A stretch of DNA of 23,974 nt from a virus: positions 1 through 23,974 of the IMG/VR virus record IMGVR_UViG_3300031757_000673. One strand, 5' to 3'. This document shows, in pieces, positions 1,467 to 23,505 of the stretch. Under the pieces are notes generated by a model. That model was not told where the DNA came from, searched no databases, and saw only the letters and a program-made list of their open reading frames with translations. Position numbers and translations under genes: made by a program. How positions within the stretch are numbered: the first letter of the stretch is position 1; each line of letters opens with the position of its first letter.

Positions 1467-2453
1467 ATGGATCTTACTTTACTCTATATGGTCGTAGGAT
1501 TTATCCTTGCGGCTTACTCTGTTGTAGCTAATGATAGTGTACAAACCCTTGGACCGTGGATAGCTTGTAACTCAGACCATCCAGATAATACTGAGCCAGG
1601 GTTTCATTGGCGAACACTTTGGTTATCAGCAACGGCAGTCTTACTGTTTACATTATGGTATGGCTGGTATGTTAATGGAGGAGATATATCCTTTGGACGC
1701 TTAAATCAAATACCATTCCAAGAAGTCCGATGGTATCATGCTACTGCTCCACTTGTACTTTTATTATTAACACGAGTTGGCGTACCAGTTTCAACAAGTT
1801 TCTTAGTCCTGTCTGCATTCGCTAGTACATTTGTATTAGAAAAGATGCTAGTCAAATCTATTATAGGCTATGCGTTAGCGGCCATCGTTGCTTACTCCAT
1901 ATGGTTGATAGTTGAACGTGTCATAGATGAGAAAGCAGATAAGGTTCCTGAAACACATAAAATTTATTGGCGTGTTGGTAGTTGGGCCACTACAGCATTC
2001 TTATGGTACACTTGGTTATCACACGACATGGCCAATATTGCTGTATTCCTTCCTAGAGCATTATCCGTTGAATGGATGCTTTTTATATCTGTTGTGTTTA
2101 TAGTATTCTTAGGATATACATTTTATGAGCGTGGAGGAAAGATTCAACATATTGTTTTAGAAAAGACAGGTACTAGATATGTACGTTCAGCAACATTAAT
2201 TAATCTAGTCTATGCATTTATATTAATGTTCTTTAGAGAGTATAATGATATACCAATGAGTACTACTTGGGTCTTTGTTGGATTGTTATGTGGACGTGAA
2301 CTTGCTATCTCAACACTTATGGAAAACTATAAGTTTAAGTATGTGTTTCCAATTATTGGGCGAGACTTTCTAAAAATGATGCTGGGCTTAATTGTATCGG
2401 TTGGCATAGTATTAACGATACACTATGTAATAATTCCAAACAACTTACATTAA
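1467..2453 (+). CDS. PiT-like inorganic phosphate permease, divergent
   Basis: Integral membrane protein of 328 residues with about nine hydrophobic segments. Two internal repeats resemble the PiT (PF01384) inverted-repeat architecture. Repeat one has VVANDSVQTLGPWI near residue 19, matching the GANDxxNxxGP signature, and GVPVSTS near 104, matching PxSTTH. Repeat two has LSHDMANIAVFLPR near 184, a degraded signature with the Asn-Asp pair changed to His-Asp, and DIPMSTTWVFVG near 261. The expected role is proton- or sodium-coupled phosphate uptake across the host inner membrane during infection, which would suit phosphate-poor seawater. It is shorter than most bacterial PiT proteins. The start follows AGGAG after a sigma70-like promoter, so early expression is likely. 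The stop overlaps the stop of the convergent lipase gene. The PiT assignment rests on motifs only. Confidence 0.68.
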   Translation: MDLTLLYMVVGFILAAYSVVANDSVQTLGPWIACNSDHPDNTEPGFHWRTLWLSATAVLLFTLWYGWYVNGGDISFGRLNQIPFQEVRWYHATAPLVLLLLTRVGVPVSTSFLVLSAFASTFVLEKMLVKSIIGYALAAIVAYSIWLIVERVIDEKADKVPETHKIYWRVGSWATTAFLWYTWLSHDMANIAVFLPRALSVEWMLFISVVFIVFLGYTFYERGGKIQHIVLEKTGTRYVRSATLINLVYAFILMFFREYNDIPMSTTWVFVGLLCGRELAISTLMENYKFKYVFPIIGRDFLKMMLGLIVSVGIVLTIHYVIIPNNLH

Positions 2454-3286
2454 CGTTCATACATACTCGCATAATTATCAATAAAAGACGGCTGAGGTGT
2501 TTCTTTACCGTCTCTTAATTTCTTTATATGCTTAATATATTCTTTAGGATTATGATCAGCAACAGAATCAAACTTTAAGTTTTTTATACCCTTAATGATC
2601 CCACGCCATACGTCTTTAGTGCGTTGCCATCCTGTAATGTTTCTTATGTTACCCCAGTGATTAAAATACATACATACTCCGTGATGCCTATAACCCATAA
2701 AATAAAAAGGTACTCTAGCTACTATATCTGCATTGTTAACCCAACGATAATGTACCATTGGAAAGTTATTAATATAGTTTTTCCAACCTACTCTTGGTGA
2801 TCCAAATGTATGCAGGGCAACTGGATGTTTAATTATTTGATCACCTCTACAACGACTTGACATTATTGTTGACATTGCCGCTCCTAACGAATGTCCAATA
2901 AAATAAAGATGACGTGTCTTTTGCTCTCTAACAATATCTTCTCTAATCTTATCCCATAGTTTATCGACTTCACCTTTAAAGCCACTATGTACTCGTCCTA
3001 TAGTTTCAGATACGATCGGCCATGACCTAGCATCTGCTTTAATATCATTAAATTGTTTAGGTTGAGTTCCACGACAAGCAAAAACCATATCGTGCTTATT
3101 CATAAAGCGATATGCTTCTGCACCGTTGATGTTATAATATTCTACTGTAGTGAAGCCTAACTTCTTTGCTAATCGTGTTGCGTGATATTCAGTAAAATAA
3201 GCAACCCTGCTTAACTCTGCAAAGAGTAAAGCCTGATCGTGAAAAGGTAAGTCTTTAATTTTTGTTTTAAGTTTTGCACTAAACAT
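2450..3286 (-). CDS. Class 3 lipase-like alpha/beta hydrolase
   Basis: A 278-residue protein with the hallmarks of the Lipase_3 (PF01764) family, which hydrolyses acyl esters of glycerolipids. VFACRGTQ near residue 68 matches the oxyanion strand, and GHSLGAA contains the nucleophile S133. The likely triad partners are D187 in NNADIVARVP and H245 in ADHNPKEY. HTFGSPRVG near 159 is also typical. No signal peptide or membrane segment is visible, so it would act in the host cytoplasm or be released at lysis. The ATG at 3286 has CGGAG upstream, with a late-promoter-like AATAAATA further up. It lies downstream of the VOC gene and ends tail-to-tail with the PiT-like gene (overlapping stop codons). 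The substrate is unknown: host phospholipid breakdown at lysis and lipid recycling are both possible. Confidence 0.83.
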   Translation of the reverse strand: MFSAKLKTKIKDLPFHDQALLFAELSRVAYFTEYHATRLAKKLGFTTVEYYNINGAEAYRFMNKHDMVFACRGTQPKQFNDIKADARSWPIVSETIGRVHSGFKGEVDKLWDKIREDIVREQKTRHLYFIGHSLGAAMSTIMSSRCRGDQIIKHPVALHTFGSPRVGWKNYINNFPMVHYRWVNNADIVARVPFYFMGYRHHGVCMYFNHWGNIRNITGWQRTKDVWRGIIKGIKNLKFDSVADHNPKEYIKHIKKLRDGKETPQPSFIDNYASMYER

Positions 3287-3305
3287 TACTACTCCGTTAT
3301 AGTAG

Positions 3306-3313
3306 TATTTATT
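3306..3313 (-). promoter_or_regulatory. Late-promoter-like octamer before lipase
   Basis: AATAAATA on the minus strand in the short gap between the VOC and lipase genes. It is followed by CTACTATAAC and then the CGGAG of the lipase gene. Seven of eight bases match the T4 late consensus. Confidence 0.5.
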
Positions 3314-3327
3314 TAATTAGTGCGTTT

Positions 3328-3795
3328 TTATGGGCATCCCCATTCAGGATGTCCTGTAATATCAGGTTCGGTTTCTGGATATGTTACTTCGCTATCGCTG
3401 TAGCTTTTAATTTCTAAAATATTACAATGGGGATCTTTAATGAAGAACGTTTCTTGTTCAAGCATCTTGCCCTCAAATCGTATAAAAGGTTTAAGAAGAT
3501 ATCCAATCTTATTTTCTTCTATACGTCTTTTTATATCATTATAGTCTTTACGACGTAGATGCACCCCAAAGTGCGGGACCATTACATCGTTCATACTATC
3601 TACATGATGTGCTTCAAATTTAGGTTTGTTAGTTGGGTCACTTGCGTGAAGGGTTAATTCGTTACCGAAGAAGTTAATGTCAATCCAATTAGGAAGTTCT
3701 TTATCTGCTGATTCACATCCTAACATATCAACATAAAACTTTAAGGCAGAATCTATGTCCCCCACTTCAAGTGCTAAATGAAACGTTGAACTCAT
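3328..3795 (-). CDS. VOC-fold (glyoxalase/dioxygenase superfamily) protein
   Basis: A 155-residue protein with the paired beta-alpha-beta-beta-beta pattern of vicinal-oxygen-chelate enzymes. Possible metal ligands are H6 in FHLALEV, H50 in ELTLH, H75 or H79 in PHFGVHL, and E128 in NILEIKS. The N-terminal half starts FHLALEVGDIDSALKFY, a classic VOC opening. The second half ends FFIKDPHCNILEIK. The C-terminal 25 residues form a Pro/Glu-rich tail. Members include glyoxalase I, dioxygenases and drug-resistance proteins, and the reaction cannot be chosen here. AGGAG precedes the ATG at 3795, and part of it lies in a hairpin (3804-3827). It shares a strand with the downstream lipase and may be cotranscribed from the tRNA side. 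Confidence 0.8.
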   Translation of the reverse strand: MSSTFHLALEVGDIDSALKFYVDMLGCESADKELPNWIDINFFGNELTLHASDPTNKPKFEAHHVDSMNDVMVPHFGVHLRRKDYNDIKRRIEENKIGYLLKPFIRFEGKMLEQETFFIKDPHCNILEIKSYSDSEVTYPETEPDITGHPEWGCP

Positions 3796-3803
3796 CTTAT
3801 GCT

Positions 3804-3827
3804 CCTAGAAAAGAACTTTTTACTAGG
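3804..3827 (-). promoter_or_regulatory. Hairpin overlapping the VOC ribosome-binding site
   Basis: On the minus strand, CCTAG and CTAGG arms extended by an A-run facing a T-run fold around a short loop. The downstream arm contains most of the AGGAG that serves the ATG at 3795, so the structure could limit translation. Confidence 0.35.
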
Positions 3828-3862
3828 TTTCTATCTAGATGCTATGTATATTTAGCTAAGAA

Positions 3863-3936
3863 TGGAGCGGAGTGTCGGAATCGAACCGACAGCATCAGCT
3901 TGGAAGGCTGAGGTATTACCACTATACGAACCCCGC
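3863..3936 (-). tRNA. tRNA-Gly (anticodon UCC), CCA encoded
   Basis: Minus-strand cloverleaf. The acceptor stem GCGGGGT pairs with ACTCCGC (one G-U). The anticodon stem TCAGC/GCTGA holds the loop CTTCCAA with anticodon TCC. The T-arm is GTCGG-TTCGATT-CCGAC. The discriminator is U, followed by an encoded CCA. It reads GGA and GGG glycine codons. It is the only tRNA I see in the window. A near-consensus promoter ends 8 bases before the mature 5' end, so little or no 5' leader is expected. Confidence 0.95.
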
Positions 3937-4034: not shown

Positions 4035-4301
4035 ATGAAAAAACGTACCCGATCTATACTAGAAGAACTTAATAGCATCCATAGAACTGCTGATAATGAT
4101 GCATTAATCCAATCTACAGGACACAATTTGATAGAAAGCTCTATTAATTTATTGAATAGAATTACTGAGAGTTATGACCCTGATACAGCTTCTGAACTAG
4201 AAAGACGCTTTATTAATAGTATACGAAGTGGTGATCCACGTAAATTTAAACGTGGAATTGATCGTATTGTTGAAACAAAGAGACATTCCGATGATTCTTA
4301 A
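4035..4301 (+). CDS. Conserved small phage protein, 88 aa
   Basis: I recognise this as resembling a small conserved protein of marine T4-like phages, of unknown function. The first 15 residues are basic (MKKRTRSILEELNS), followed by a helical acidic region (NLIESSINLLNRITESYDP) and a charged C-terminus (RKFKRGIDRIVETKR). It has no cysteines and no membrane segment. It is probably alpha-helical and may be a small core or assembly protein, to judge from its position at the head of the virion-cargo block. AGGAA sits 10 bases upstream of the ATG. The last 11 bases overlap the start of the nucleotidyltransferase gene, which suggests translational coupling. Confidence 0.75.
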   Translation: MKKRTRSILEELNSIHRTADNDALIQSTGHNLIESSINLLNRITESYDPDTASELERRFINSIRSGDPRKFKRGIDRIVETKRHSDDS

Positions 4302-4995
4302 AGAAGGCGGAAATATATTTAAAAATGCTGAAGGCGAACCAGCAACAGTTCGCATTAACAAAGCTGATGTCAAACCTACACTTTCTTGGCTTGAAAAGAT
4401 TACTAAATTAGACCATAAGAATCATATGCTAGGTAGCACTGGTGTTAAAGACACAAGTGGTGACTTAGATGTTGCAATTGATAAAGAAAAGGTTGACAAA
4501 GATAATTTAGTAAGTATACTACGAGCTTGGGTAATTAAAAATTACCCTGACGAGGATCCTAAAAATTGGATACGTAAGTCAGGAATTTCTGTACACTTCA
4601 AAACACCAATCAATGGTGATCCTAAAAAAGGCTTTGTTCAAACTGATTTAATGTTTGGTGACCAAAAGTTTATGAAGTTTGCTTTAGGCGGTATGGATGC
4701 AAAAAGTAATTTCAAAGGACAACACCGTATGATTATGATTGCCTCACTTGCTAAAGCACAAGGCTTTAAGTGGAGTCCTTCAAATGGATTAGTTGATAGA
4801 ATAACTAATGAACCTACAAAAAAAGCTAAAGATCCAGACTTCATTTCTAAAACTTTAATGGGTCCAACTGCATCAGCAAAAGACTTACAAAGTGTAGAAT
4901 CAATTAATAATAAAATTAAAGCAGACCCTAATTATGAGGCACTAGTAGCAGATGCTAAAGAGTGGTTTGAAAAGGATGGGCTTGAGCTACCGTAA
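4291..4995 (+). CDS. Pol-beta-type nucleotidyltransferase
   Basis: A 234-residue protein with the nucleotidyltransferase active site: GS at residues 49-50 (MLGSTG), DLDVAID with metal-binding D58 and D60, and a third carboxylate D119 in VQTDLMFGD. Members of this superfamily transfer NMP to RNA, DNA, proteins or small molecules. The acceptor here is unknown. The reading frame opens at 4228, but I place the start at 4291 because residues before it have no family character and MILKEGG gives a short leader ending in L-K-E/G, like the T4 prohead protease site. It directly precedes, and overlaps by one base, a ligase-like gene, so a linked nucleic-acid end-processing role is plausible. A toxin or antitoxin role is an alternative. 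Confidence 0.75.
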   Translation: MILKEGGNIFKNAEGEPATVRINKADVKPTLSWLEKITKLDHKNHMLGSTGVKDTSGDLDVAIDKEKVDKDNLVSILRAWVIKNYPDEDPKNWIRKSGISVHFKTPINGDPKKGFVQTDLMFGDQKFMKFALGGMDAKSNFKGQHRMIMIASLAKAQGFKWSPSNGLVDRITNEPTKKAKDPDFISKTLMGPTASAKDLQSVESINNKIKADPNYEALVADAKEWFEKDGLELP

Positions 4996-6533
4996 TGAGA
5001 TTTTTTGAATTTAAACATATTGTAAAAGAAATGGAAGCACGTATCCAACACGCTGAAGATGTTGTGTTCTGGGAAGGTAGTGCTGGAGCCAAACGTGCCT
5101 TAACAGCTTTATCTAATATGGCTAAAGGTGGCGAGAAAAATGTTACAATTAAATGGGATGGTTCTCCAGCAGTAGTATTTGGTCGTAATCCTAAAGGGAA
5201 GTTTGTCTTTACAGATAAGTCAGGCTTTGTCGCAAAAGGATATGATGGCAAATCACAAAGTGGAGATGACTTAGAGAATATGTTATTAAGCAGAGGCAAA
5301 GGTGGTGATAAATCAGCTAGTTATAAAGCATTTGCAGGTAACATGAAAGATGTATACGACGAGTATGAAAAAGCTGTACCTAAAAAACACAGAGGATACT
5401 TTAAAGGAGACTTACTATATTTTAATAAGCCAAAGCTAATTGATGGTGCATATACTTTTAAACCAAATACCGTACAGTATAAAGTACAAGCAGACAGCGA
5501 CTTAGGTAAACGAGTAGGAAGAAGTAAAACAGGAATAGTTATTCATAGAGTTGTAGACGATGCTGGTACTGAAGGGCCATTACAAAATGCAGATATTTTT
5601 GAAGGTAATGAAGTGTTAGTGCTACCACCAGTAACTACACAAGACCCTCCACAGATAGATAGTGCTGGTATTAAAAATTTAAATGCGATTGTTAATAAGA
5701 ACGGAGCGGCTATTGATGCTCTATTAAACCAAGAAACATTACGTAACATGAAAGTTAGTGACTTTCCTAATATATTATACACATATACAAATAGATGTGT
5801 TGATGACAATTGTTTAACCAATTTAGGAAAAGACTTCGTACAATGGTTAAGTGGAAGTAAAGTTAGTAGAATTAAACAAGGTAAAATTATTGAATACCTT
5901 CAGGCAAATATGCAAGGCGTTAATGCTTTATGGCAAACTGTTTCAGGCATTATGAAAGTTAAAGACGATATTGTACAACAACTAGAACAACAACCTGCTG
6001 ATGTACAAGCAACAATAGGTGACAAACCAGGTGGAGAGGGATATGTATTATCTCATCCAGGTGGTGATATGAAATTAGTTAACCGCGGTAATTTTAGTGC
6101 GGCTAATAGAGCAATTAAACGTGAAGGAAAAACTATGAGAGCAAAAGAATTTGTTAAAGAAACCGGGGACTTTGATCCAGGCGAAATTGACTTTATGCAA
6201 AAAAGAGATGTTGATCCTGCTGACGCTGATGACGGAGGTATTGGTCCTGGATTTAAAAACGATACTATATTTGACCAACTAGGTAAAATATTAGACTCGC
6301 AAGGTAATCCAGTTGAACGAGATACCGTAGTAACAGACGATGACAAAAAGTTTAAAGTTACAGTACCACAAGCTAAAACATTAAGAATGATGGCTACTAC
6401 TGATAAAGTTAAACCTGCTGTACGTGTTGAGTTTACTAAATCTATTCAACGATCAGATGGACTCGCACCATTTTTAGCAGTTAAAGATCCGCGAGATATG
6501 ATTAATATCTTTGCTGACAAATATATGAAGTAA
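4995..6533 (+). CDS. Ligase/capping-type covalent nucleotidyltransferase-like protein
   Basis: A 512-residue protein that resembles a conserved marine T4-like phage family. Residues 50-57 read VTIKWDGS, matching ligase motif I KxDG with K53 as the putative nucleotide-accepting lysine. Residues 134-142 (GYFKGDLLY) resemble motif III. EGYVL at 348-352 followed by K360-L-V resembles motifs IV and V. A long insert separates III from IV. An alternative motif IV is TGIVIH near 179. If real, it would join or adenylylate RNA or DNA ends. The N-terminus MRFFEFKHIVKE resembles a capsid-targeting leader. From residue 381 a separate ~130-residue domain begins with its own Shine-Dalgarno and similar leader (listed separately). 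It starts on the last base of the nucleotidyltransferase stop. The ligase assignment is motif-based only. Confidence 0.62.
   Translation: MRFFEFKHIVKEMEARIQHAEDVVFWEGSAGAKRALTALSNMAKGGEKNVTIKWDGSPAVVFGRNPKGKFVFTDKSGFVAKGYDGKSQSGDDLENMLLSRGKGGDKSASYKAFAGNMKDVYDEYEKAVPKKHRGYFKGDLLYFNKPKLIDGAYTFKPNTVQYKVQADSDLGKRVGRSKTGIVIHRVVDDAGTEGPLQNADIFEGNEVLVLPPVTTQDPPQIDSAGIKNLNAIVNKNGAAIDALLNQETLRNMKVSDFPNILYTYTNRCVDDNCLTNLGKDFVQWLSGSKVSRIKQGKIIEYLQANMQGVNALWQTVSGIMKVKDDIVQQLEQQPADVQATIGDKPGGEGYVLSHPGGDMKLVNRGNFSAANRAIKREGKTMRAKEFVKETGDFDPGEIDFMQKRDVDPADADDGGIGPGFKNDTIFDQLGKILDSQGNPVERDTVVTDDDKKFKVTVPQAKTLRMMATTDKVKPAVRVEFTKSIQRSDGLAPFLAVKDPRDMINIFADKYMK
6135..6533 (+). CDS. Probable internal start: C-terminal 132-aa product
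   Basis: In frame with the ligase-like gene, the ATG at 6135 is preceded by GAAGGA with a 6-base spacer, a better site than that of the parent gene. It begins MRAKEFVKE/TGD, the same style of leader (M-R-x-x-E-F...K-E) as the parent and other genes nearby. The product is acidic in its first half (DVDPADADDGG) and more ordered in its second (VTVPQAKTLRMM; DPRDMINIFADKYMK). I recognise no enzymatic motif. It may be a virion protein made both as a domain of the long protein and alone. It remains possible that only the full-length protein exists. Confidence 0.45.
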   Translation: MRAKEFVKETGDFDPGEIDFMQKRDVDPADADDGGIGPGFKNDTIFDQLGKILDSQGNPVERDTVVTDDDKKFKVTVPQAKTLRMMATTDKVKPAVRVEFTKSIQRSDGLAPFLAVKDPRDMINIFADKYMK

Positions 6534-6538
6534 GTGTT

Positions 6539-7414
6539 ATGGAACTAGAGTTTTTAGACGAAATTCATGAAGCGAGAATGACTCGCAATTCAAGTGACCA
6601 ACGTCAGTTAACGTATACTGATTGTTGTGAGCGCCTCTATCTGTCTCTATTAGTTTTAGAAGTATTAAGAAGGTTCCCATCATTTAAACCAATAGCAAAT
6701 GGCTATGCAAGAAATACAGTAAGTAACCAAAACTATGGTCACTTCCGTATACACGCAACAGACTTATATAACTTAATATATTTTGTTACTGGTGACGAAC
6801 AAGCAATGAACAAGTTAAAAGATCCGGCGGCGGCTTTGCAACTTCGTCAGCGTACAACGTTACCTCTTATGAGACTTAATGGTTACTTACATCAAGTGTC
6901 AAGTGGCTTTAATGGCTCTAATTCAGAATTATTTCTTAACATAGAGGGTGCTCTACGTATTGGTAACTCAGACTACAAAGCAATTAGACGCCATGTTGTT
7001 AATCTTAACAGCATTAGTACACTTGATAAAAAGAAAGTTGTAACTAAATTATTACTGGCCGCTAGAGCTAAACTACGAAATAGTGATTTAATTCCTGCAT
7101 TAGAACAGTTAGCCTCACAGAGAGATTTAGAAACAAGTAAGGTTAAAGATAACGAACCAAGTATTAGTACACCTGATATGGTTCCAACAACTAATAGAGA
7201 ATTAATGTTTTATAGATACATTGTTGGTCCTCGTAATTTAGTTGGTACTAAAAAGTTTTTAGACATGGCAAAGCAAGGCAAAAGTGTTCCATCCCCTTTT
7301 ATTCAAGCCTACCTACCGGCTGTTAAAATGCTTGATGACATAGTAAAAGCCGGTCCAGGATACATCACAATGCTCAGAGCACTCCAAAAAAGAGCATTAC
7401 AGAGCAAAAAGTAG
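6539..7414 (+). CDS. Conserved phage protein, 291 aa, capsid-targeting-like leader
   Basis: I do not recognise a function. The protein is mostly helical and basic, with a Leu-rich segment (YLSLLVLEVLRRF near residue 30) and a C-terminal basic helix (MLRALQKRALQSKK). The N-terminus MELEFLDEIHE/ARM offers L-D-E and I-H-E sites matching the (I/L)-x-E rule of the T4 gp21 prohead protease. It starts 5 bases after the ligase-like gene and has only a weak Shine-Dalgarno, so translation is probably coupled. A late-promoter-like site follows it, making it the likely end of this transcription unit. Position and leader suggest a virion-associated protein, by inference. Confidence 0.72.
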   Translation: MELEFLDEIHEARMTRNSSDQRQLTYTDCCERLYLSLLVLEVLRRFPSFKPIANGYARNTVSNQNYGHFRIHATDLYNLIYFVTGDEQAMNKLKDPAAALQLRQRTTLPLMRLNGYLHQVSSGFNGSNSELFLNIEGALRIGNSDYKAIRRHVVNLNSISTLDKKKVVTKLLLAARAKLRNSDLIPALEQLASQRDLETSKVKDNEPSISTPDMVPTTNRELMFYRYIVGPRNLVGTKKFLDMAKQGKSVPSPFIQAYLPAVKMLDDIVKAGPGYITMLRALQKRALQSKK

Positions 7415-7432
7415 CCAAAAATCCCCCAATTG

Positions 7433-7440
7433 ACTAAATA
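7433..7440 (+). promoter_or_regulatory. Late-promoter-like octamer before the 113-aa gene
   Basis: ACTAAATA followed by CTATTAAC, the extension shared with other copies in this window. Predicted start near 7446, giving a leader of about 57 bases that ends in a strong AGGAGA. Confidence 0.5.
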
Positions 7441-7502
7441 CTATTAACTAACATACAAGAGAAACGTATGTCAGGGTCATTAGAGAACATAGGAGAAATA
7501 AA

Positions 7503-7844
7503 ATGGCTGGAGTAGCAAGAACAACAGGAATAGGTCACGCACACGAGACCTTATATTCAACAGCAAATCTAGGTTTTTACGTAATCGCTTGTCAGGCAAG
7601 TATGGCAAGTGAAGGCGGAATTGGTAAAGCCTTAGAAGCATTAGCACAAGCAATCAACCCACTAGCGTACAATTCAGAAGGTACAGCAGGATTAGTAAAC
7701 GTTGTAGTTGACGGATCACAATGGGACGCGGCGGCACTACAACGTGCAGTACGTCACCTTGGTGATGACGTTGGTTCAACTGGATCTATCGATTTTAGTG
7801 CGGCAACGGCAACTGCTGGTGGACAATTTATAGTAGCGGCGTAA
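7503..7844 (+). CDS. Probable abundant virion protein, 113 aa
   Basis: The family is not firmly recognised. The protein is small, rich in Ala, Gly and Thr and nearly free of charged clusters. It starts MAGVARTTGIGHAHETLYST and ends TATAGGQFIVAA, a composition typical of capsid decoration or tail structural proteins. Its own late-promoter-like site, a strong Shine-Dalgarno (AGGAGA, 7 bases before the ATG) and a dedicated terminator at 7879-7912 make it a single-gene unit built for high output. It resembles small structural proteins of marine T4-like phages, but I cannot name one. Alanine pairs here use GCG as the first codon, as elsewhere in the window. Confidence 0.75.
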   Translation: MAGVARTTGIGHAHETLYSTANLGFYVIACQASMASEGGIGKALEALAQAINPLAYNSEGTAGLVNVVVDGSQWDAAALQRAVRHLGDDVGSTGSIDFSAATATAGGQFIVAA

Positions 7845-7878
7845 TTACTTAATTACACTACACTATTAACACACTACG

Positions 7879-7912
7879 AAAAAGGGTTCAGTTTTTACTG
7901 GACCCTTTTTTT
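7879..7912 (+). terminator. Intrinsic terminator after the 113-aa gene
   Basis: GGGTTCAG (7884-7891) pairs with CTGGACCC (7898-7905) with one G-U. The loop is TTTTTA. The stem is followed by seven T, and the A-run before the stem can extend it and make it partly bidirectional. Confidence 0.88.
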
Positions 7913-7935
7913 ATGACCGATAAGTATAATTAACT

Positions 7936-8358
7936 ATGGAATCATTAGAAATTAAAACACTTGTCGATATCACGCAAACTGGACAGAACAAATTTAGAAG
8001 CCATGATAGATTATTAATTAATCAGCAGGCTAATTGGAATACATTCTTTCAAGTATTAAGTATGCGAATAAATCCACTTTTTAATGGAGGGCCTACTGTA
8101 GAAAAACGAACTTTAGAAAATGGGGAGTTTGGTAGTGACCATGATCCAGCAGAAGAACATAATGTTTGGACATTTAAATTTGATAGTGAACGTGATGGTG
8201 CATTAACTCCATCACTGTTAACTGATGATTTTGATCTTATTCCAGTTATAAACAACTTAAACGAGTCTACAATAAATAACAGTGATGCTTTTCGCACTAA
8301 CGGAACGGCACAAAATATTGTGTTTAAGTTAGTAGATAAAGAAGAGCTGGCACAATGA
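7936..8358 (+). CDS. Conserved phage protein of unknown function, 140 aa
   Basis: The opening MESLEIKTLVDIT and the pattern of a long N-terminal block followed by an Asp/Glu-rich middle (SDHDPAEEHNVWTFKFDSERDG) resemble a hypothetical protein found repeatedly in marine T4-like phages. There are no catalytic motifs, cysteines or membrane segments. The middle block has alternating hydrophobic residues (VWTFKF, IVFKLV), suggesting a beta-rich fold. It starts shortly after the terminator of the preceding gene. No clear Shine-Dalgarno is present, but a TATAAT at 7925-7930 lies close to the ATG, which could mean its own promoter; no -35 box is convincing. The stop overlaps the next late-promoter-like octamer. 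Confidence 0.75.
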   Translation: MESLEIKTLVDITQTGQNKFRSHDRLLINQQANWNTFFQVLSMRINPLFNGGPTVEKRTLENGEFGSDHDPAEEHNVWTFKFDSERDGALTPSLLTDDFDLIPVINNLNESTINNSDAFRTNGTAQNIVFKLVDKEELAQ

Positions 8359-8364
8359 TAAATA
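8357..8364 (+). promoter_or_regulatory. Late-promoter-like octamer before the coiled-coil/TM gene
   Basis: GATAAATA overlapping the stop of the preceding gene, followed by TTAACGTG. Predicted start near 8370, giving a leader of about 110 bases before the ATG at 8483. I see no other strong structure in that leader apart from GGAGA before the ATG. Confidence 0.45.
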
Positions 8365-8482
8365 TTAACGTGAACAGAATAAGTTGTTAGATTCTTAACT
8401 GTTTACCAGGCACATAATATAGAACATCAGGCGATTATAAAACAGGCCCCTTCCACGATAACAACGGAATGGAGAGATAAAG

Positions 8483-8731
8483 ATGGCGAAAAGTGCCATA
8501 GTAAAAGCAGACGTAGAAAAAGATAATCTAGAAGCTCATGTGGCTCTATGCCACCAACGCTATGAGAATCTAGAACGCAGATTAACTACAATTGAAGAAA
8601 AAGTCGAACATATCCACACTGATATTATACACGGCAACAAATCGATGATGAAGGTAATTATTGGTGCCACAGGCACTATAATTGCCGGCTTACTTTCCAC
8701 GCTTGTTGTTGTGCTCATGAATTTTAACTAA
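8483..8731 (+). CDS. Small coiled-coil protein with C-terminal membrane segment
   Basis: An 82-residue protein. Residues 10-50 form a charged helix with coiled-coil spacing (YENLERRLTTIEEKVEHIH). Residues 58-80 are a hydrophobic segment (VIIGATGTIIAGLLSTLVVV) ending four residues before the C-terminus. This layout matches XhlA-like phage proteins and small holin accessory proteins, and a similar protein recurs in marine T4-like phages. A role in membrane anchoring or lysis is an inference. GGAGA lies 8 bases before the ATG. The gene stands alone between two late-promoter-like sites, which fits late expression. Confidence 0.78.
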   Translation: MAKSAIVKADVEKDNLEAHVALCHQRYENLERRLTTIEEKVEHIHTDIIHGNKSMMKVIIGATGTIIAGLLSTLVVVLMNFN

Positions 8732-8746
8732 TCCATCTTACATTCA

Positions 8747-8754
8747 CATAAATA
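8747..8754 (+). promoter_or_regulatory. Late-promoter-like octamer 5 bases before an ATG
   Basis: CATAAATA ends exactly 5 bases before the ATG at 8760. With T4 spacing (octamer at -13 to -6) the first transcribed base is the A of that ATG, so a leaderless mRNA is predicted. Confidence 0.6.
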
Positions 8755-8759
8755 CACGT

Positions 8760-9149
8760 ATGCTGTTACGTGAAATCTATAATCATCTAGACGAGAAGCA
8801 AATCTGGGGCAGATCCGGACAAAAAGTGGTGCGAAAGTTCCGCTGTACTGTTGGTCGCCGCAAAGGAAGAATTGTAAAGAAGATCGCACAATGCTTTGCT
8901 TCACCTAATATGAAAGCTAGAATTACAATGAAGCGTACTAGAGCAAGAGTCGGCGCTAAAATGATGCGTAGACGAGCGAAAACAATGCGTTCAAACCCAG
9001 CATCTAAACGAGTACAAGCATTAAACAAAGCTGGGAAGCCATCAGGAACACGTAAGCCAAAGAGTTTTAGAGCATTTAAACCAAAAAGAACTATGCCAAA
9101 GAAGGTTAAGAGTTTTAAACCTGGTAAACCAAAGAAGGCTAAAAAGTAA
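8760..9149 (+). CDS. Highly basic internal-protein-like, copy 1
   Basis: A 129-residue, very Lys/Arg-rich protein. After the leader MLLREIYNHLDE/KQ (L-D-E site) comes a conserved block IWGRSGQKVVRKFRC, then GRRKGRIVKK and a second Cys about 18 residues on. An ITMKRTRAR block follows, then a lysine-rich tail (KSFKPGKPKKAKK). The paired cysteines could bind metal or form a disulfide. It is a paralogue of the next gene: both share F/WGR-x-x-KVVRK(F/Y)RCT, RKGRIV, ITMK and S-KR-LNK in order. Composition and leader suggest a DNA-binding protein packaged in the head, like T4 internal proteins; this is inference. No Shine-Dalgarno precedes the ATG, which may be leaderless. The stop overlaps the next start by one base. 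Confidence 0.78.
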   Translation: MLLREIYNHLDEKQIWGRSGQKVVRKFRCTVGRRKGRIVKKIAQCFASPNMKARITMKRTRARVGAKMMRRRAKTMRSNPASKRVQALNKAGKPSGTRKPKSFRAFKPKRTMPKKVKSFKPGKPKKAKK

Positions 9150-9574
9150 TGAAAATTGCTGAAATTATTACTGAAGGTATTATTCCTATCTTTGGAAGAT
9201 CTAAAGGTAAAGTTGTTAGGAAATATAGATGTACGTCAGGCACTAGAAAAGGACGTATTGTAGCAAAACCGGCTACTTGTAATGCGGCTAAGAAAATTAG
9301 CAGTATGATTACAATGAAGAAAGCCAGACGAGCAAGATCATCTGTTCTACAAATAAAATCTAGTAGACGTAAACGAACTGGAGCAACTTCAAAACGTATT
9401 GCAAAATTAAACAAACCATTATCACAAAAACGATATGGTAAAGCAAAATCACGTAGAAAATCTATTAATAAGCCAAAAGGTTATACGCCACCACATAAAA
9501 GAGTAGCACGTAAGATTACTAAAGGTGGGCCAAGTGCAAAAAGAAGAAAACCGACAAGAAAGAAAATTAAATAG
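9149..9574 (+). CDS. Highly basic internal-protein-like, copy 2
   Basis: A 141-residue paralogue of the preceding gene, probably a tandem duplication. Leader MKIAEIITE/GII has an I-T-E site as in T4 capsid-targeting peptides. The core is IFGRSKGKVVRKYRCTSG, RKGRIVAKPATC, ITMKKARRAR and TSKRIAKLNK. The tail is again Lys/Arg-rich but differs in sequence (RRKSINKPKGYTPPHKR, RRKPTRKKIK). The two cysteines keep the same spacing as in copy 1. A nucleic-acid-binding role in the virion or just after injection is likely. It starts on the last base of the previous stop, with AAGG upstream. I recognise the core as a conserved marine T4-like phage family without an assigned function. Confidence 0.8.
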   Translation: MKIAEIITEGIIPIFGRSKGKVVRKYRCTSGTRKGRIVAKPATCNAAKKISSMITMKKARRARSSVLQIKSSRRKRTGATSKRIAKLNKPLSQKRYGKAKSRRKSINKPKGYTPPHKRVARKITKGGPSAKRRKPTRKKIK

Positions 9575-9582
9575 AGTAAATA
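9575..9582 (+). promoter_or_regulatory. Late-promoter-like sequence 5 bases before an ATG
   Basis: AGTAAATA followed by CTATT and then the ATG at 9588. The octamer matches six of eight consensus bases, but spacing and the CTATTA extension match the other copies, and no Shine-Dalgarno is present. Confidence 0.4.
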
Positions 9583-9587
9583 CTATT

Positions 9588-10064
9588 ATGAGAGCTTACG
9601 AATTTAAAAAACCTATAGACGAAGCAAAGATTGTAGAAATTGTTCCAGCAATTGGAAATGCAGTCGGCAGAGTAGGTCAAGCCATGGGCGGAGCGGCGGC
9701 ACAAGGTGCAGGAGCGGCGGCGGCCATGGGAAAAGATACAAATAAAGCTCAACAAGTAGGAGCCAAAGTGGCAAAAGGGGCGGCCACGGCAATACAAAAA
9801 GGACAAGATAAAGTAGCCTCAGCAATCCTTAAAAAAGGATCACAATTAGCAGTTCCAACGCAAGGTGGAAAAGAAGAAGAATTTGATATTGTAGACGTCG
9901 ACGGAGACGAAGTTACATTAAAAAACCCAAATCCTAAAACAGGTGAACCACAAGGGTTCATTTATAAAAAGGATGAATTAGATGCTATAGTAAAAGCTAA
10001 AGCAGATAAAGTAGCTGGCAGTGACGCTGACGCAGGCGGCAATCCAGCAGGACAGGTAGTATAA
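9588..10064 (+). CDS. Alanine-rich phage protein with capsid-targeting-like leader, 158 aa
   Basis: The open frame begins at 9525, but I choose the ATG at 9588. It gives MRAYEFKKPIDE/AKI, the leader style of neighbouring genes with an I-D-E/A cleavage site, and the 63 bases before it overlap the previous gene. Residues 20-85 are Ala/Gly/Gln-rich (GAAAAMGKDTNKAQQ) and helical, suggesting an elongated or core-forming segment. Residues 95-135 (FDIVDVDGDEVTLKNP, GFIYKKDEL) look like a small beta-barrel. No enzymatic motif is present. Runs of Ala codons are written GCGGCGGCG, giving a striking GC-rich patch in an AT-rich gene. Probable virion component. Confidence 0.75.
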   Translation: MRAYEFKKPIDEAKIVEIVPAIGNAVGRVGQAMGGAAAQGAGAAAAMGKDTNKAQQVGAKVAKGAATAIQKGQDKVASAILKKGSQLAVPTQGGKEEEFDIVDVDGDEVTLKNPNPKTGEPQGFIYKKDELDAIVKAKADKVAGSDADAGGNPAGQVV

Positions 10065-10270
10065 TGAAAATAAATGACCTCGTAGGTGAATTTACAATAG
10101 CAATGAGTAATGAAGAAGCTAGAGTTCTTAAAAAGCTAGACAATCCATTACCCTTACATTCTTTTCCCGAAAGAGAACAATTCGTTATTGAGGGACTTAT
10201 CCGAAAAGCACTGGTAAGTAAAGTACGCAATAACAATCTGACGTTGGTAGTTGCTAATGAAGATTTCTAA
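10064..10270 (+). CDS. Conserved small phage protein, 68 aa
   Basis: Starts MKINDLVGEFTIAMSNEEARVLKKL and resembles a short conserved protein of marine T4-like phages with no known function. It continues with a predicted helix (EREQFVIEGLIRKALV) and a C-terminal beta strand (NLTLVVANEDF). The pattern, a helix-turn-helix-sized domain with IEGLIRKALV, could be a winged-helix-like fold, but that is speculative. The start overlaps the stop of the previous gene (TAATG), and the end overlaps the next gene by 14 bases, so it belongs to a coupled series. Confidence 0.75.
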   Translation: MKINDLVGEFTIAMSNEEARVLKKLDNPLPLHSFPEREQFVIEGLIRKALVSKVRNNNLTLVVANEDF

Positions 10271-10682
10271 ACTAGCAAAAGAATTAGACGCAATTATGGA
10301 ATCCGGACTTCAGGATGTCTTTATTCCCTATGCTAAAGGTAACAGCATACGCATTAAGAATACTGTAATTAGACGTACTAAACATGGATATTTAATATTT
10401 AATGTTAAAGATAGTAAACGTATAGCTGATACATTTAGCAAAAGAGGCGCAATTGCTTATGCTCGTTGCGTATCTAAAAATAAGCAAGATGACCTACATA
10501 CAATACTAGAATTAGATACAAAGCTAGGAAAGTACTATATGGATAGCTTATATGCCAAAAATACCATTGAAAAAACGTCAGATCCTGTTAGACAAGACTC
10601 TGCTTTAATACTATTTGATATAGCAAAAGACAAAACATGGTATTATACGTGCCAGCTTGACGACTATATCTTTGACGATTGA
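10257..10682 (+). CDS. Conserved phage protein, 141 aa
   Basis: The frame is open from 10251 (TTG), but the ATG at 10257 gives MKISKLAKELDAIMES/G, a leader of the local style with an I-M-E/S site, so I take it as the start. The body is mixed alpha/beta: RIKNTVIRRTKHGYLIFNV near residue 30, ADTFSKRGAIAYARCV near 60, LGKYYMDSLYAKNTIEK near 90 and a Tyr/Asp-rich end (WYYTCQLDDYIFDD). I recognise it only as resembling small proteins of marine T4-like phages. It has no catalytic motif. A late-promoter-like octamer starts just after its stop. Confidence 0.74.
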   Translation: MKISKLAKELDAIMESGLQDVFIPYAKGNSIRIKNTVIRRTKHGYLIFNVKDSKRIADTFSKRGAIAYARCVSKNKQDDLHTILELDTKLGKYYMDSLYAKNTIEKTSDPVRQDSALILFDIAKDKTWYYTCQLDDYIFDD

Positions 10683-10683
10683 T

Positions 10684-10691
10684 GATAAATA
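10684..10691 (+). promoter_or_regulatory. Late-promoter-like octamer before the 300-aa core-like gene
   Basis: GATAAATA followed by ACTATAAC. Predicted start near 10697, and AGGAA lies between it and the ATG at 10722. Confidence 0.5.
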
Positions 10692-10721
10692 ACTATAACA
10701 CTTAGGATAGGAATACAAGAT

Positions 10722-11624
10722 ATGAAAATACATGAACTATCAAAACCATTAACAGCAAATGCGTTGAATGAAAGTCTTGGTAAAAACTTCGGGCAAAAGT
10801 TACAATTAGAAAGTTTTACTCTATCGCAACTTGAGGACGCACGAAACAGGCTTAGAACTCAATTAGCAGATGTTGAAACTAATGAGAGTTTTGAAACTGT
10901 TCATAATAGTGACGCTTACCAAAAAGGTAAATTATTCCTTGACACAATCAATAAAGAAATTGCTGAGAGAGACGAATGGGTTACTGAAGCTGACAAAGAC
11001 CCAGAAACAGAATTTACATCATGGCTTAAAGACAAAAAAGGCAAAGGTATAAGAGAACTTAAAGGTAACGAATATACTAAAATGTCAAAAGAATTCCAAG
11101 CACAGAAAAAAGAACCAGTTAAAGAAGGCGCAGAAGAATCAGCTCAACTAGTAATGGCCGCAAAGGACATGGTTGATAGAATTACAGGCTGGATGGAAGA
11201 CACAGCAGAAATGCAAACAGAATCAATGCTAGAATTAGGCGACGCGATTCGTGACGAACTAGGCAGTGAAATGAGTGAACAATTCATTGGTACTGTAAAA
11301 CCAGCATTAGAACAATTATATACAACTTTCGAAGGAACACGTGAAGCACTTACAGGTGGCGTAGCCATCATAACAGGCGAAGGTGGACCAGAAACAATGC
11401 CAGGAGCAGAAGGTGATGTTCCGGTAGAGGATCCAGCAATGGAGCCTGTCGATGCAGAAGGCGAACCAGGTGTTGAAGCTCCAGTAGATGATGAATTTGG
11501 CGCAAGTGAACCTGCTACAGGCGGAGAAGAAGTTGCAGACAGAGAAAAAAGAGAAAGCGTAGAACGATCACGTAGGCTAGGAAACATTTTAAGTACGGAG
11601 AGTACTTCAAAAAAAAAGTCTTAG
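10722..11624 (+). CDS. Prohead-core-like acidic virion protein, 300 aa
   Basis: Leader MKIHELSKPLTANALNE/SLG (L-N-E/S). A helical block follows that I associate with marine T4-like phage structural proteins: LESFTLSQLEDARNRLRTQL near residue 29, and SDAYQKGKLFLDTINKEIAERDE near 62. Residues 140-210 are acidic helices (MLELGDAIRDELGSEMSEQF). Residues 215-275 are a disordered Pro/Glu/Asp-rich linker. The last 25 residues are basic (EKRESVERSRRLGNIL). This acidic-helical, protease-site-bearing profile fits a scaffold or prohead core protein, but I cannot name a T4 equivalent. The stop TAG falls just after a nine-A run. A -1 slip there would join this protein to the next frame. Confidence 0.75.
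   Translation: MKIHELSKPLTANALNESLGKNFGQKLQLESFTLSQLEDARNRLRTQLADVETNESFETVHNSDAYQKGKLFLDTINKEIAERDEWVTEADKDPETEFTSWLKDKKGKGIRELKGNEYTKMSKEFQAQKKEPVKEGAEESAQLVMAAKDMVDRITGWMEDTAEMQTESMLELGDAIRDELGSEMSEQFIGTVKPALEQLYTTFEGTREALTGGVAIITGEGGPETMPGAEGDVPVEDPAMEPVDAEGEPGVEAPVDDEFGASEPATGGEEVADREKRESVERSRRLGNILSTESTSKKKS
11609..11617 (+). other. A9 run: candidate -1 frameshift site
   Basis: TTC followed by nine A lies 5 codons before the stop of the 300-aa gene. A -1 slip continues into the frame of the next gene through VLEGTTLKTELISIFRN, protein-like residues that come before its first ATG and have no in-frame ATG, GTG or TTG of their own. Confidence 0.4.
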
Positions 11625-11668
11625 AAGGGACAACCCTTAAGACAGAATTAATATCAATTTTTAGAAAT

Positions 11669-11950
11669 ATGATAGGCGGTGCTGACAATAAAAATCAGCC
11701 TGCCTATCTTTCTTTTCAAGCACTCAATAAAATATTAAGTAACGTTGATAAACCACAATTTGATTACGACGGATTCAAAGTAGTTTATGATGCTAATCCA
11801 GACCTTCAAGCATACATTAAAAACTTTGATGATAAAGGTGTAACACTAGCAACAAAAGTTGAAGCACCTTCAGACGCACAAGTCCAAACCGATTCCGGCA
11901 CTGACACAGTAGACCAAATGGCAAAACGTGCCACTGCTAAAGCTCAGTAA
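11669..11950 (+). CDS. Hypothetical protein, 93 aa or C-terminal part of a frameshift product
   Basis: From the ATG at 11669 it reads MIGGADNKNQPAYLSFQALN, KILSNVDKPQFDYDGFKVVY and so on, ending in a Thr/Asp/Lys-rich tail. The frame is open back to 11576, and the upstream codons look like real protein (YFKKKVLEG, TELISIFRN) but lack a start. The ATG itself has no Shine-Dalgarno and seems to begin in mid-helix. I therefore suspect it is made by -1 frameshifting at the A9 run, or from a non-standard start. Function unknown; no enzymatic motifs. A sigma70-like promoter for the next block follows directly. Confidence 0.65.
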   Translation: MIGGADNKNQPAYLSFQALNKILSNVDKPQFDYDGFKVVYDANPDLQAYIKNFDDKGVTLATKVEAPSDAQVQTDSGTDTVDQMAKRATAKAQ

Positions 11951-11989: not shown

Positions 11990-12565
11990 ATGAATGAGTA
12001 TAAATTCCTTCCCACTTTGATGTGGAAATACAATTATGAGCAAGGTTTTGATTTAAATCCTTTTAAAGATCAATTAAAAAGAATTGGAATTCAAGGCAAC
12101 TATGAAGGTGAAGGTGGATTAACTACAGCAGGTATGGGCGAAAACCTTCACGAGCAAGAATTTTTAGTACCTTTTTTAAATTGGCTTAGACCAAAAGTTG
12201 AACTTGCATTAAATGAATGGCAACTTAATTGGACTCAATACTTTATTACTAAAAGTTGGGTTAACAGTCATCTAATAGGTGGTTATACTAAAACACATGA
12301 TCACGGCTCTACTCATTTAGTTGTATCAATTTATATTAAACAACCTAAGAATGGTGGGAATGTTGAATTTGAAAACTTTACTCGTCGTGAGTGGATTTCC
12401 TATATGAGAAAAGATAAACCCGGAAATATGCATGACTACTATAGTGAAGTGGCTATTGAAACAAACGATGTTCTTATTTTTCCTGGTTGGCTATCGCATA
12501 GAGCACAAGCTAATAATTCTATTGAAGAAAGGTTAGTGTTTACACTAAATTATTTTGTACAATGA
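11990..12565 (+). CDS. 2OG-Fe(II) oxygenase-like protein A
   Basis: A 191-residue protein resembling the phage-rich putative 2OG-Fe(II) oxygenases (PF13759-like). The jelly-roll core runs from SWVNSHLIGGYTKTHDHGST near residue 89 to FPGWLSHRAQ near 164 and ERLVFTLNY near 179. H-D-H near residue 104 supplies proximal iron ligands, LSH the distal histidine, and the Arg in EER may bind 2-oxoglutarate. These enzymes hydroxylate proteins, nucleic acids or small molecules, and the substrate is unknown. It is paralogous to the next gene, which it overlaps by 4 bases (ATGA). It is the first gene of the block and probably has a leaderless transcript. Confidence 0.82.
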   Translation: MNEYKFLPTLMWKYNYEQGFDLNPFKDQLKRIGIQGNYEGEGGLTTAGMGENLHEQEFLVPFLNWLRPKVELALNEWQLNWTQYFITKSWVNSHLIGGYTKTHDHGSTHLVVSIYIKQPKNGGNVEFENFTRREWISYMRKDKPGNMHDYYSEVAIETNDVLIFPGWLSHRAQANNSIEERLVFTLNYFVQ

Positions 12566-13215
12566 ATGAAGTAAAACTAGTACCAACTATAGTATTTAAA
12601 TATAATTATGAGCCTGGGTTTAACCTTGATAAGTTTAAGGAACATATAAAACTTCACGGAGGTCCTGGTGTTTCAGAAGATGGTGGCGGTATTACTACAG
12701 CAGGAAATAACGACAATCCGCACTTTTGGCCTTCAATGGTTCCTTTTTTACAATGGCTCCATCCTAAAATAGAAATTGCATTAAATGAATGGGCCGTTGC
12801 ATACGACTCATATTTTATTTCTAAAAGTTGGGCTAACCTACATACTAGGGGAGGTTATACAAAACCACATGAACATGGTCCTGGGTCTGTTGTAGTATCA
12901 ATTTATGTTAAACAACCGCAGGATGGTGGTAATATTATGTTTGAATCTTTACTGCGTGATAAATGGGTAGCATATTCAAGAGAAGATAAGCATAGTAACA
13001 TTCATGACTACTGGCGAGAAATTTCAGTAAATACAAACGACGTGCTTTTATTTCCAGGATGGATTAATCATAAAACACAACCAAGTAAAACAGACGAAGA
13101 AAGAATAGTATTCACAATCAATTTCGGAGCAGTAATAAAAAGTAGAATGTTACACGAAAACGAAATTCATACAACAGAAAGGACGGACAAAGCAGTAATT
13201 CCGAAAATAAAATGA
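12562..13215 (+). CDS. 2OG-Fe(II) oxygenase-like protein A', paralogue of A
   Basis: A 217-residue protein clearly related to the gene before it along its whole length: MNEVKLVPT versus MNEYKFLPT at the start, the shared GG(L/I)TTAG block near residue 43, and SIY(I/V)KQP. Iron-ligand candidates are H-E-H in KPHEHGPG near residue 107 and the His in FPGWINHKTQ near 168, followed by DEERIVFTINF. About 25 extra C-terminal residues (HENEIHTTERTDK) have no counterpart in protein A. Both neighbouring overlaps are ATGA, so translation is coupled from A through to the Nfu gene. The substrate is unknown. The pair looks like a tandem duplication that has diverged. Confidence 0.82.
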   Translation: MNEVKLVPTIVFKYNYEPGFNLDKFKEHIKLHGGPGVSEDGGGITTAGNNDNPHFWPSMVPFLQWLHPKIEIALNEWAVAYDSYFISKSWANLHTRGGYTKPHEHGPGSVVVSIYVKQPQDGGNIMFESLLRDKWVAYSREDKHSNIHDYWREISVNTNDVLLFPGWINHKTQPSKTDEERIVFTINFGAVIKSRMLHENEIHTTERTDKAVIPKIK

Positions 13216-13619
13216 CAGATGAAAAAACAGCGGCAGAAATTGAAGTTGCAATAGCAACTATTATAGAAGACAAACTACAACCAAGTGTTGCGATGCATGG
13301 AGGCGAAATAAGTTTAAAGGAGTGGGATCATGCTAATGGTATAGCAACTATTTTTATGTCTGGTGCTTGTTCAGGATGTGCTATGTCAATGCAAACTTTA
13401 AAGATGGGTGTTGAACGTACACTTATGCATTACATTCCAGAAGTAAAAGTAGTGCATGGTGAAGAAGATATTAATTCACAAGTAGATCCTTATATGTCTA
13501 ACGATGCATGGGGAGGCGTGGATTTAAGTAGTCCATTTAACATAACTCCTAGGCAACCTACAACAGAACCACCTACATCAAAAGACAATCCTAATTCTAG
13601 ATTTAATAAAAAGGATTAA
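13212..13619 (+). CDS. Nfu-type iron-sulfur scaffold protein
   Basis: A 135-residue protein. Residues 5-80 form a NifU C-terminal (Nfu) domain: LQPSVAMHGGEISL near 22, then MSGACSGCAMS with the cluster-binding C53 and C56 (CxxC), and LKMGVERTLMHYIPEV near 63. Nfu proteins hold and hand over [4Fe-4S] clusters, usually as dimers sharing the CxxC pairs. The last ~55 residues are Pro/Thr/Asn-rich and probably disordered. The gene lies between two pairs of non-haem iron oxygenase-like genes, joined by an ATGA overlap upstream, and not far from the ribonucleotide reductase genes. Phage Nfu proteins are known in marine T4-like phages. A role in supporting host iron-sulfur repair during infection is inference. 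Confidence 0.92.
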   Translation: MTDEKTAAEIEVAIATIIEDKLQPSVAMHGGEISLKEWDHANGIATIFMSGACSGCAMSMQTLKMGVERTLMHYIPEVKVVHGEEDINSQVDPYMSNDAWGGVDLSSPFNITPRQPTTEPPTSKDNPNSRFNKKD

Positions 13620-13621
13620 TT

Positions 13622-21121: not shown

Positions 21122-21384
21122 CAAACTCTGTAATTTACAGTAAACCTAATTGTCCTTATTGCGTTCAAGCAAAAGCATTATTAGATAAAACCCAAATTCC
21201 ATATAACGAAGTAGTAATAGGAAAAGATATAACAGTAGGTAAACTATTTGAAGAGTTTGAACTAAATGGAATGGCGCAACCGAAATCTGCTCCACAAATT
21301 ATTTTACATGGTAAGTATATAGGAGGCTTTAAAGAACTCCAACAATATTACGAAGACTGTGAATTAGGAAGAAACGACACATAA
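21118..21384 (+). CDS. Glutaredoxin
   Basis: An 88-residue thioredoxin-fold protein: VIYSKPNCPYCVQAKALL with the CPYC active site near residues 12-15, the cis-proline in SAPQIIL near 57, and HGKYIGGF near 64 for glutathione binding. Its expected job is to re-reduce the C-terminal CxxC of NrdA, like T4 NrdC. It overlaps nrdB by an ATGA and the following gene by one base, so all are coupled. The last residues (CELGRNDT) form a short polar tail. Confidence 0.94.
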   Translation: MTNSVIYSKPNCPYCVQAKALLDKTQIPYNEVVIGKDITVGKLFEEFELNGMAQPKSAPQIILHGKYIGGFKELQQYYEDCELGRNDT

Positions 21385-23474: not shown

Positions 23475-23497
23475 ATCACTTAAAAACTCATTATACT

Positions 23498-23505
23498 GAT
23501 AAATA
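23498..23505 (+). promoter_or_regulatory. Late-promoter-like octamer before the second cold-shock gene
   Basis: GATAAATA, predicted start at 23511. That base is also the first base of a perfect 8-bp inverted repeat (23511-23527, one-base centre), so the transcript could begin with a small hairpin. Confidence 0.5.

Follow-up and report, generated by a model that had tools for sequence, protein, structure and literature searches.

The window analysed here is the entire 23,974-base IMG/VR record IMGVR_UViG_3300031757_000673, a fragment with no further genome behind it, and a megablast of this window against phage records returned no DNA-level match. Between positions 4291 and 11624, its plus strand carries a block of genes, many of which begin with a short N-terminal leader ending in a putative prohead-protease site, in the style of the internal proteins of phage T4. 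This had been reported in an original prediction made from the sequence alone, and the observation was confirmed, with all of the quoted N-termini found in place on the plus strand. Written with a slash at the predicted cut, the block opens with a DNA-polymerase-beta-like nucleotidyltransferase (4291..4995; leader MILKE/G, 4291-4305), a DUF6267 ligase-like protein with a fused C-terminal domain (4995..6533; MRFFEFKHIVKE/M, 4995-5030), and a protein without assigned function whose mature form has an isoelectric point (pI) of 10 (6539..7414; MELEFLDEIHE/A, 6539-6571). Three leaderless genes follow at 7503..7844, 7936..8358, and 8483..8731, the last encoding a small coiled-coil protein with a hydrophobic C-terminal segment and only weak profile matches. 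Beyond them lie a very basic protein (8760..9149; MLLREIYNHLDE/K, 8760-8795; mature pI 12, 38% K+R), its basic paralog (9149..9574; MKIAEIITE/G, 9149-9175; mature pI 12), an Ala/Gly-rich protein (9588..10064; MRAYEFKKPIDE/A, 9588-9623), a small phrog_16215 protein (PHROG E 1.8e-4) with the leader-like start MKINDLVGE (10064..10270), a gene starting MKISKLAKELDAIMES (10257..10682; N-terminus MKISKLAKELDAIME/S), and an acidic virion protein of phrog_14154 (PHROG E 1e-7; 10722..11624; MKIHELSKPLTANALNE/S, 10722-10772). A -1 slippery heptamer, A_AAA_AAG (11612..11618), which may act as a frameshift or slippage site, is located just 5′ of the stop codon of this last gene, and a 110-residue extension in the -1 frame (11618..11950), starting VLE/G, would add a second domain to its product with a protease-type site at the junction.

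The tripeptide [ILV]xE was present within the first 20 residues of 10 of the 13 block proteins, compared to a mean of 4.9 of 13 when residues 2-24 were permuted (P=0.004), and when a small residue was also demanded at P1′ the count was 6 as opposed to 1.6 (P=0.002). The leaders often begin M(K/R)x-x-(E/D)-(F/I/L), and a strict leader-plus-site pattern run over six frames matched block genes only, five in the window and two in a 110.9-kb relative, contig G001. Because this pattern was composed after the leaders had been seen, the case rests on conservation, which is the stronger test. Approximately 100 loci of the lineage were gathered via DUF6267, and each family was compared over 17-44 distinct orthologs. 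As predicted cut site we took [I/L/V/M]-x-E, slightly wider than that of T4 since V or M occupies P3 in some proteins, and counts refer to sequences that reach the site.

Although the leaders vary in sequence and length, the cut site was kept in every ortholog reaching it for genes 4291, 4995, 6539, 8760, 9149, and 10722. In the polymerase-like family it was present in 42/42 sequences, including forms such as MIHPVHRVLNE/GG, and in DUF6267 in 39/39, where [ILVM]-x-E stands one or two residues ahead of ARIxHxED in all 32 distinct contexts and the site Glu forms an invariant alignment column, like the KWDG residues. The DUF6267 leaders span a range that includes MRFFEFKHIVKE, MRLWEFTRPVKRALTE, and a form in which MRFYEF precedes an insert of ~40 or more residues with SVLNE at its end. 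Some lineages had seemed to carry unrelated DUF6267 leaders, which proved wrong, as their starts still read MR(F/Y)x(E/D)F with the insert placed before the site. The site of 6539, followed by A/S-R, was kept in 26/26 sequences, that of 10722 in 18/18, and that of 9588 in 9/10. The 8760 site (31/31) lies at a fixed distance of 12 residues ahead of RK(F/Y)RC, and all distinct orthologs of 9149 keep [ILVMF]xE 12-20 residues ahead of the same motif, so that the two families have a site in all 54 distinct N-termini with leaders of ~8 to 30 residues. These two proteins are paralogs with 42% identity, an exception to the statement that the sequences after the leaders are unrelated, which otherwise mostly held.

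The list of leaders with cut sites was upheld for 4291, 4995, 6539, 8760, 9149, 9588, and 10722 and failed for two genes in which the site was not kept. Orthologs of 10064 retain the start MKINEL but have the site Glu in 9/32 only, with Asp, Lys, or Ser often in its place, and the 10257 site was found in only 10/29, so that both were rejected as cut proteins on alignment. In T4, a propeptide with Asp at residue 10 is targeted and left uncut (PMC9026906), and by analogy the 10064 protein could be packed without cleavage. Alignment of the block-internal genes 7503, 7936, and 8483 revealed no conserved site or leader, and a conserved N-terminal [ILV]xE occurred in one of eight downstream control families (13212). 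At gene 4035, on the left edge of the block, the start MKKRTRSILE/E may be a leader; its ILE was kept in 39/39, but the entire N-terminus is equally conserved.

Several observations on relatives and predicted structures suggest that the leaders are add-ons to the cargo proteins. Cyanophage DUF6267 is leaderless and begins MAKNTHLEHLEDD, the position at which the window protein would start once cut as predicted, and the DUF6267 protein of methylophage Melnitz reads MLTLINFSKYITE/D. Relatives that keep just the last third of 6539 carry a new leader, M(E/K)FI(R/Q)D(M/L)YE, and at L096:1998-4271, where a single open reading frame (ORF) encodes both the polymerase-like and the ligase-like protein, a protease-type site stands at the join (IRE/EGARIDHAED). 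The AlphaFold model of 4291 has a mean predicted local distance difference test (pLDDT) score of 90.9 and falls below 50 at residues 1-6 only, and that of DUF6267 (mean pLDDT 81.2) is unstructured at residues 1-16 and at the cut C-terminus; the models thus leave little beyond the leader unstructured. A search of the open literature, which covers part of the published work, returned nothing relevant on cyanophage capsid targeting or DUF6267.

A gp21-type protease with comparable sites, as looked for on the basis of the original prediction, was found in the lineage outside the window. Contig G001 (110,870 bases) holds the leader block at 101574-110864, with a DUF6267 protein 56% identical to that of the window, as well as an S77 protease (ORF 12307-12930, E 1e-27) and a Gp23 capsid gene whose product reads KKYLAE/AASTGATASGNVA, an L-A-E/A site (YLAE/AASTGATASGN). 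The S77 protease and Gp23 capsid protein are also encoded by PA5oct, 2.275.O, BF, SCTP-2, and HTVC008M, and the capsid proteins of PA5oct, BF, 2.275.O, and SCTP-2 have L-x-E/(S/N)A where the T4 propeptide ends (T4: FLTE/A), these capsid sites being read from sequence. HTVC008M, considered as a likely relative, showed no such block in the 50 kb examined, and it is the PA5oct/RaK2/BF/2.275.O group that has the block. Between portal and protease, G001 encodes a protein starting MKLKSLIE/SDKK, which resembles the start of PA5oct gp333, MKINDIITE/G; these starts beside the portal indicate that a head-core gene and the block share one leader style. The decisive link between the protease and the block lineage is this one contig, G001, in which block, S77 protease, and a capsid protein with the same motif occur together. 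The short ORFs L029:16459-16635 (MK..MKESATGGGTSAGAIASVPGG) and L030:20272-20436 (MK..INENASSGATSAGGIASVSGG) each resemble the N-terminus predicted for the mature major capsid protein (SATAGATSAGNIATL) of the phage concerned.

A conserved N-terminal Glu might alternatively mark the start of each folded domain in proteins of the virion or of infection, with no cutting and with the leaders as ordinary variable tails. N-terminal tails are often variable, the sites are close to the fold starts, and one control family has a conserved [ILV]xE as well, but we consider this explanation improbable, since the same tripeptide, hydrophobic at P3, appears in seven unrelated families as well as at the fusion junction of L096 and the frameshift junction described below, matches the capsid propeptide site, and is located where leaderless relatives begin.

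A virion role for the block proteins is best supported by synteny of the block with phage PA5oct and by four homologs there that were detected by mass spectrometry (MS), a call made by the annotators of the PA5oct record and read from the annotation, not from spectra. Gene 4035 (4035..4301, plus strand) is an 88-amino-acid conserved marker matching phrog_11854, 'virion structural protein' (PHROG E 1.5e-14), and its named relatives are only jumbo phages of the PA5oct/RaK2/BF/SCTP-2/Vibrio 2.275.O kind. In PA5oct, its homolog gp259 is followed by a run mostly annotated 'ESI-MS/MS' (gp258, 257, 254-249, and 247-245), exonuclease gp244, ribonucleotide reductase gp241/240, and PAAR/lysozyme gp239, an order matched in the window by 4035, the leader block, exonuclease 14806, reductase 17656/20015, and PAAR/CHAP 21707. 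In profile searches, 4291 matched gp253 (E 2.7e-21), 10722 matched gp247 (E 1.7e-17), and the leaderless gene 7936 matched gp250 (E 1.6e-4), with a weak match of 7503 to gp251 (E 0.002), these last two relationships being backed by synteny; all four PA5oct proteins are marked as MS-detected. Elsewhere in PA5oct, three adjacent genes, gp105-gp103 (L051:43678-45301; PA5oct 260677-262300), all have leader-type starts, MRLNEINLIE/T, MKILEFNLTE/K, and MKLSEICILE/S, and two of the three are MS-detected.

At the end of gene 10722, a likely -1 frameshift that the original prediction had missed would fuse a second domain to its product. For a 93-amino-acid ORF at 11669, conservation extends to residues upstream of the ATG that are themselves preceded by no ATG, GTG, or TTG, and the variable sites upstream of this ATG fall 6/1/9 at codon positions 1/2/3 of the -1 frame. 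Gene 10722 ends TCA AAA AAA AAG TCT TAG, and a -1 slip on A_AAA_AAG would yield KKK-VLE-GTTLKTELISIFRN, a product of 409 residues. In-frame AAA AAA AAR was found just 5′ of the stop in 24/24 distinct sequences, and the A-run was gone in both sequences whose second gene has its own ATG (MQPYRHYHKLLE/D). Both marks of a frameshift were thus observed, a conserved zero-frame slippery heptamer before the stop and a conserved -1 ORF without its own start. Ordinary re-initiation or a non-canonical start, with no frameshifting, could also produce the 11618-11950 domain, as an overlapping GTG (AAGTGA) in some lineages, e.g., L089 and L101, could restart translation. This is an unlikely route, given that no ATG, GTG, or TTG precedes the conserved residues of the -1 frame in the window and in other lineages, all of which keep AAA AAA AAR, and that the A-run was lost where a proper ATG exists. 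Folding of the downstream RNA was inconsistent across sequences, with z-scores from -6.0 to +1.3 (-2.2 in L014, the twin of the window), and the nine A's could also cause transcriptional slippage by the polymerase. The residues after the slip form (V/I/L)xE in most lineages (KKKVLE/G, KKKISE/S, KKKVNE/A, KKKVTE/A, KKKIVE/A), and the simplest reading is that one leader would import two cargos that the prohead protease then splits.

Some observations weigh against a block of capsid-targeted, protease-cut proteins. Neither an S77 prohead protease nor a capsid gene is present in the 24-kb window, the PA5oct record gives no MS detection for the homologs of 4035, 4995, and 10257, and gp253, the homolog of 4291, is in virions yet has no obvious leader. 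Over the whole PA5oct genome, the bare motif showed no clear association with MS detection, and the leader-plus-site pattern, which was chosen afterwards, was weakly linked to it (5/91 versus 2/258, P=0.015). Capsid targeting is nonetheless the reading to which we are led by a cut site invariant in seven families while the leaders vary, by the leaderless cyanophage DUF6267 that starts at the predicted mature N-terminus, by the likeness to T4 leaders, by the unstructured leaders in the AlphaFold models, and by the A-run retained in 24/24 sequences versus 0/2 with a separate start. Together with the S77 protease and Gp23 motif of the lineage, the portal-side leaders, and the PA5oct synteny, these results strongly support the capsid targeting and gp21-type cutting that had been proposed, and the block very probably specifies leader-tagged, protease-cut proteins of the head interior in a large T4-like myovirus. 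A short N-terminal propeptide on each newly made cargo would direct it into the prohead core during assembly, after which the S77 (gp21-type) protease of the phage would cut after [I/L/V/M]-x-E and free the mature protein among the packaged DNA. The 10722 protein, when extended by the -1 frameshift, would bring in a second domain under a single leader, releasable by the same protease at VLE/G. The original interpretation was thus supported in part: packaging and processing of the block proteins are well backed by sequence comparison and by synteny with detected virion proteins, with the actual import and cutting inferred, whereas injection of the cargo into the host is conjectural.

Given these leaders, the nature of the cargo is of interest. 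The 4291 model matched DNA polymerases lambda, beta, and mu with Z ~10 and 3.3-3.7 Å over 156-175 residues, and the catalytic pattern GS...DxD...D is present, with S56, G57, D58, D60, and D119 invariant in 18 sequences. No Pfam polymerase-beta profile scored above its cut-off for 4291, and one of 18 relatives matched Polbeta at E 0.044; because all Pfam cut-offs were missed, we call the protein polymerase-beta-like on its predicted DNA-polymerase-beta/lambda-like fold and do not file it as Pol X. The neighboring 4995 protein is a member of DUF6267 (PF19782; E 5e-38, 131.8 bits compared to a cut-off of 27), and its description as ligase-like gained some support, as the motif I KxDG lysine of the ATP-dependent ligase/capping superfamily is present (K53 W54 D55 G56, invariant in 20 sequences) and 50/50 structural neighbors among the matches listed were nucleic-acid ligases or capping enzymes, although with Z at most 7.4. 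CorA-type helical proteins, which headed the Foldseek results for DUF6267, were dismissed as coincidence (template modeling score 0.1, no match below E 0.1), and searching solved structures by sequence with the 4291, 4995, and 8760 profiles gave nothing meaningful. The C-terminal domain of 4995, from the internal Met at 6135, is a separate gene in the distant relatives L019/L020/L024, which points to an in-frame fusion whose internal M(R/K)A(K/S)(E/D)F may be a restart. The proposed restart MRAKEFVKE (6135-6161) is present and more likely an internal start, but it is not a general cleavage junction, since several lineages keep MRASDF or MRASEF there without the Glu site.

Adjoining and both tagged, 4291 and 4995 look, on their predicted folds, like a fill-and-seal pair acting on DNA or RNA. 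For RNA repair, the pairing of an RNA ligase with a polymerase-beta-type RlaP enzyme is known from jumbo phages (PMC7824862). The extreme basicity of 8760 and 9149 (pI 12, 36-38% K+R) is as expected for DNA-bound internal proteins. These structure-based assignments suggest a phage that carries a repair kit and other helpers in its capsid. We regard it as a tentative possibility that a gap filler, a ligase, and DNA-binding basic proteins are packed in the head and enter with the genome, so that the genome, or host-cut RNAs, could be mended before any phage gene is expressed, and that the cargo list is enlarged by a frameshift polyprotein whose parts the prohead protease would release, a single import tag then serving two proteins. 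It is also conceivable, though we would not presume it, that the leaders are packaging and processing signals for cargo whose role is confined to head assembly or DNA condensation, with no delivery to the host. The basic 8760/9149 and acidic 10722 proteins do look like DNA-binding or core components, and IPIII of T4 takes part in forming the head (PMC9026906); however, polymerase-like and ligase-like enzymes have no evident use in a closed head, and in T4 both Alt and the internal proteins pass into the host.

The genes on either side of the block were also inspected. To its left, 1467-3936 encodes a PHO4-like membrane protein and, on the minus strand, a class-3 lipase, a glyoxalase-like gene, and a tRNA-Gly; in contig G001 and PA5oct this site holds a DnaB-type helicase, indicating local rearrangement or insertion. 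To its right, 11990-14858 contains four 2OG-Fe(II)-oxygenase-like ORFs, two of them tandem paralogs, around an ORF with a NifU-like Fe-S scaffold domain (13212-13619). A small protein at 21384-21695 has a sub-threshold LSM match (E 0.007) and is possibly a Hfq/LSm-like phage protein, and tandem cold-shock-domain proteins lie at 23271-23771, the first matching CSD at E 2e-24 and the second similar by eye.

If correct, this analysis turns a peculiarity of T4 into a rule for head cargo that can be read from the sequences of uncultured jumbo phages, namely a conserved [I/L]-x-E before a conserved domain and after a variable leader. It also points to packaged polymerase-like and ligase-like enzymes that were previously unannotated or known just as 'DUF6267', and it provides an example, open to experiment, of a frameshift and a maturation protease that would jointly let a single import tag serve two cargos. 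In a search of the open literature covering part of the published work, we found no description of the block, its leaders, or the frameshift.

Several known systems are close to the block. In T4 IPI-III and Alt, which are cut by gp21, propeptides of 10-19 residues carry targeting determinants at residues 4 and 7 and processing determinants at 8 and 10, with the motif L/I-x-E (PMC9026906). The leaders in the T4 record, MKTYQEFIAE/A for IPII/IPIII, MAKINELLRE/S for gp24, and MELITE for Alt, share with those of the block a short N-terminal propeptide ending (I/L)-x-E, a common leader on differing mature parts, and, at the level of the lineage, an S77 protease. In contrast to T4, many more putatively tagged genes lie in one block here, the predicted cargo families are unrelated to those of T4 and include polymerase-like, ligase-like, and frameshift-fused proteins, and leader lengths are far more variable. 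The ejection and inner-body proteins of the large myoviruses phiKZ, 201phi2-1, and SPN3US are likewise head cargo that a protease related to gp21 cleaves after a Glu (PMC9026906), although the phiKZ motif is (S/A)-x-E and here it is (I/L)-x-E, and the cargos are set side by side by motif only. The RlaP and RNA ligase of jumbo phages (PMC7824862) resemble 4291 and 4995 in that a polymerase-beta-fold enzyme adjoins a ligase-fold enzyme, whereas here there is no Pfam match to such families and both enzymes carry capsid leaders. PA5oct gp259-gp239 shares the gene order and homologs of 4035, 4291, 10257, 10722, 7503, 7936, the exonuclease, the reductases, and the PAAR protein, but has fewer leaders, none obvious on gp253, and keeps gp247 and gp246 as separate genes, each with its own leader.

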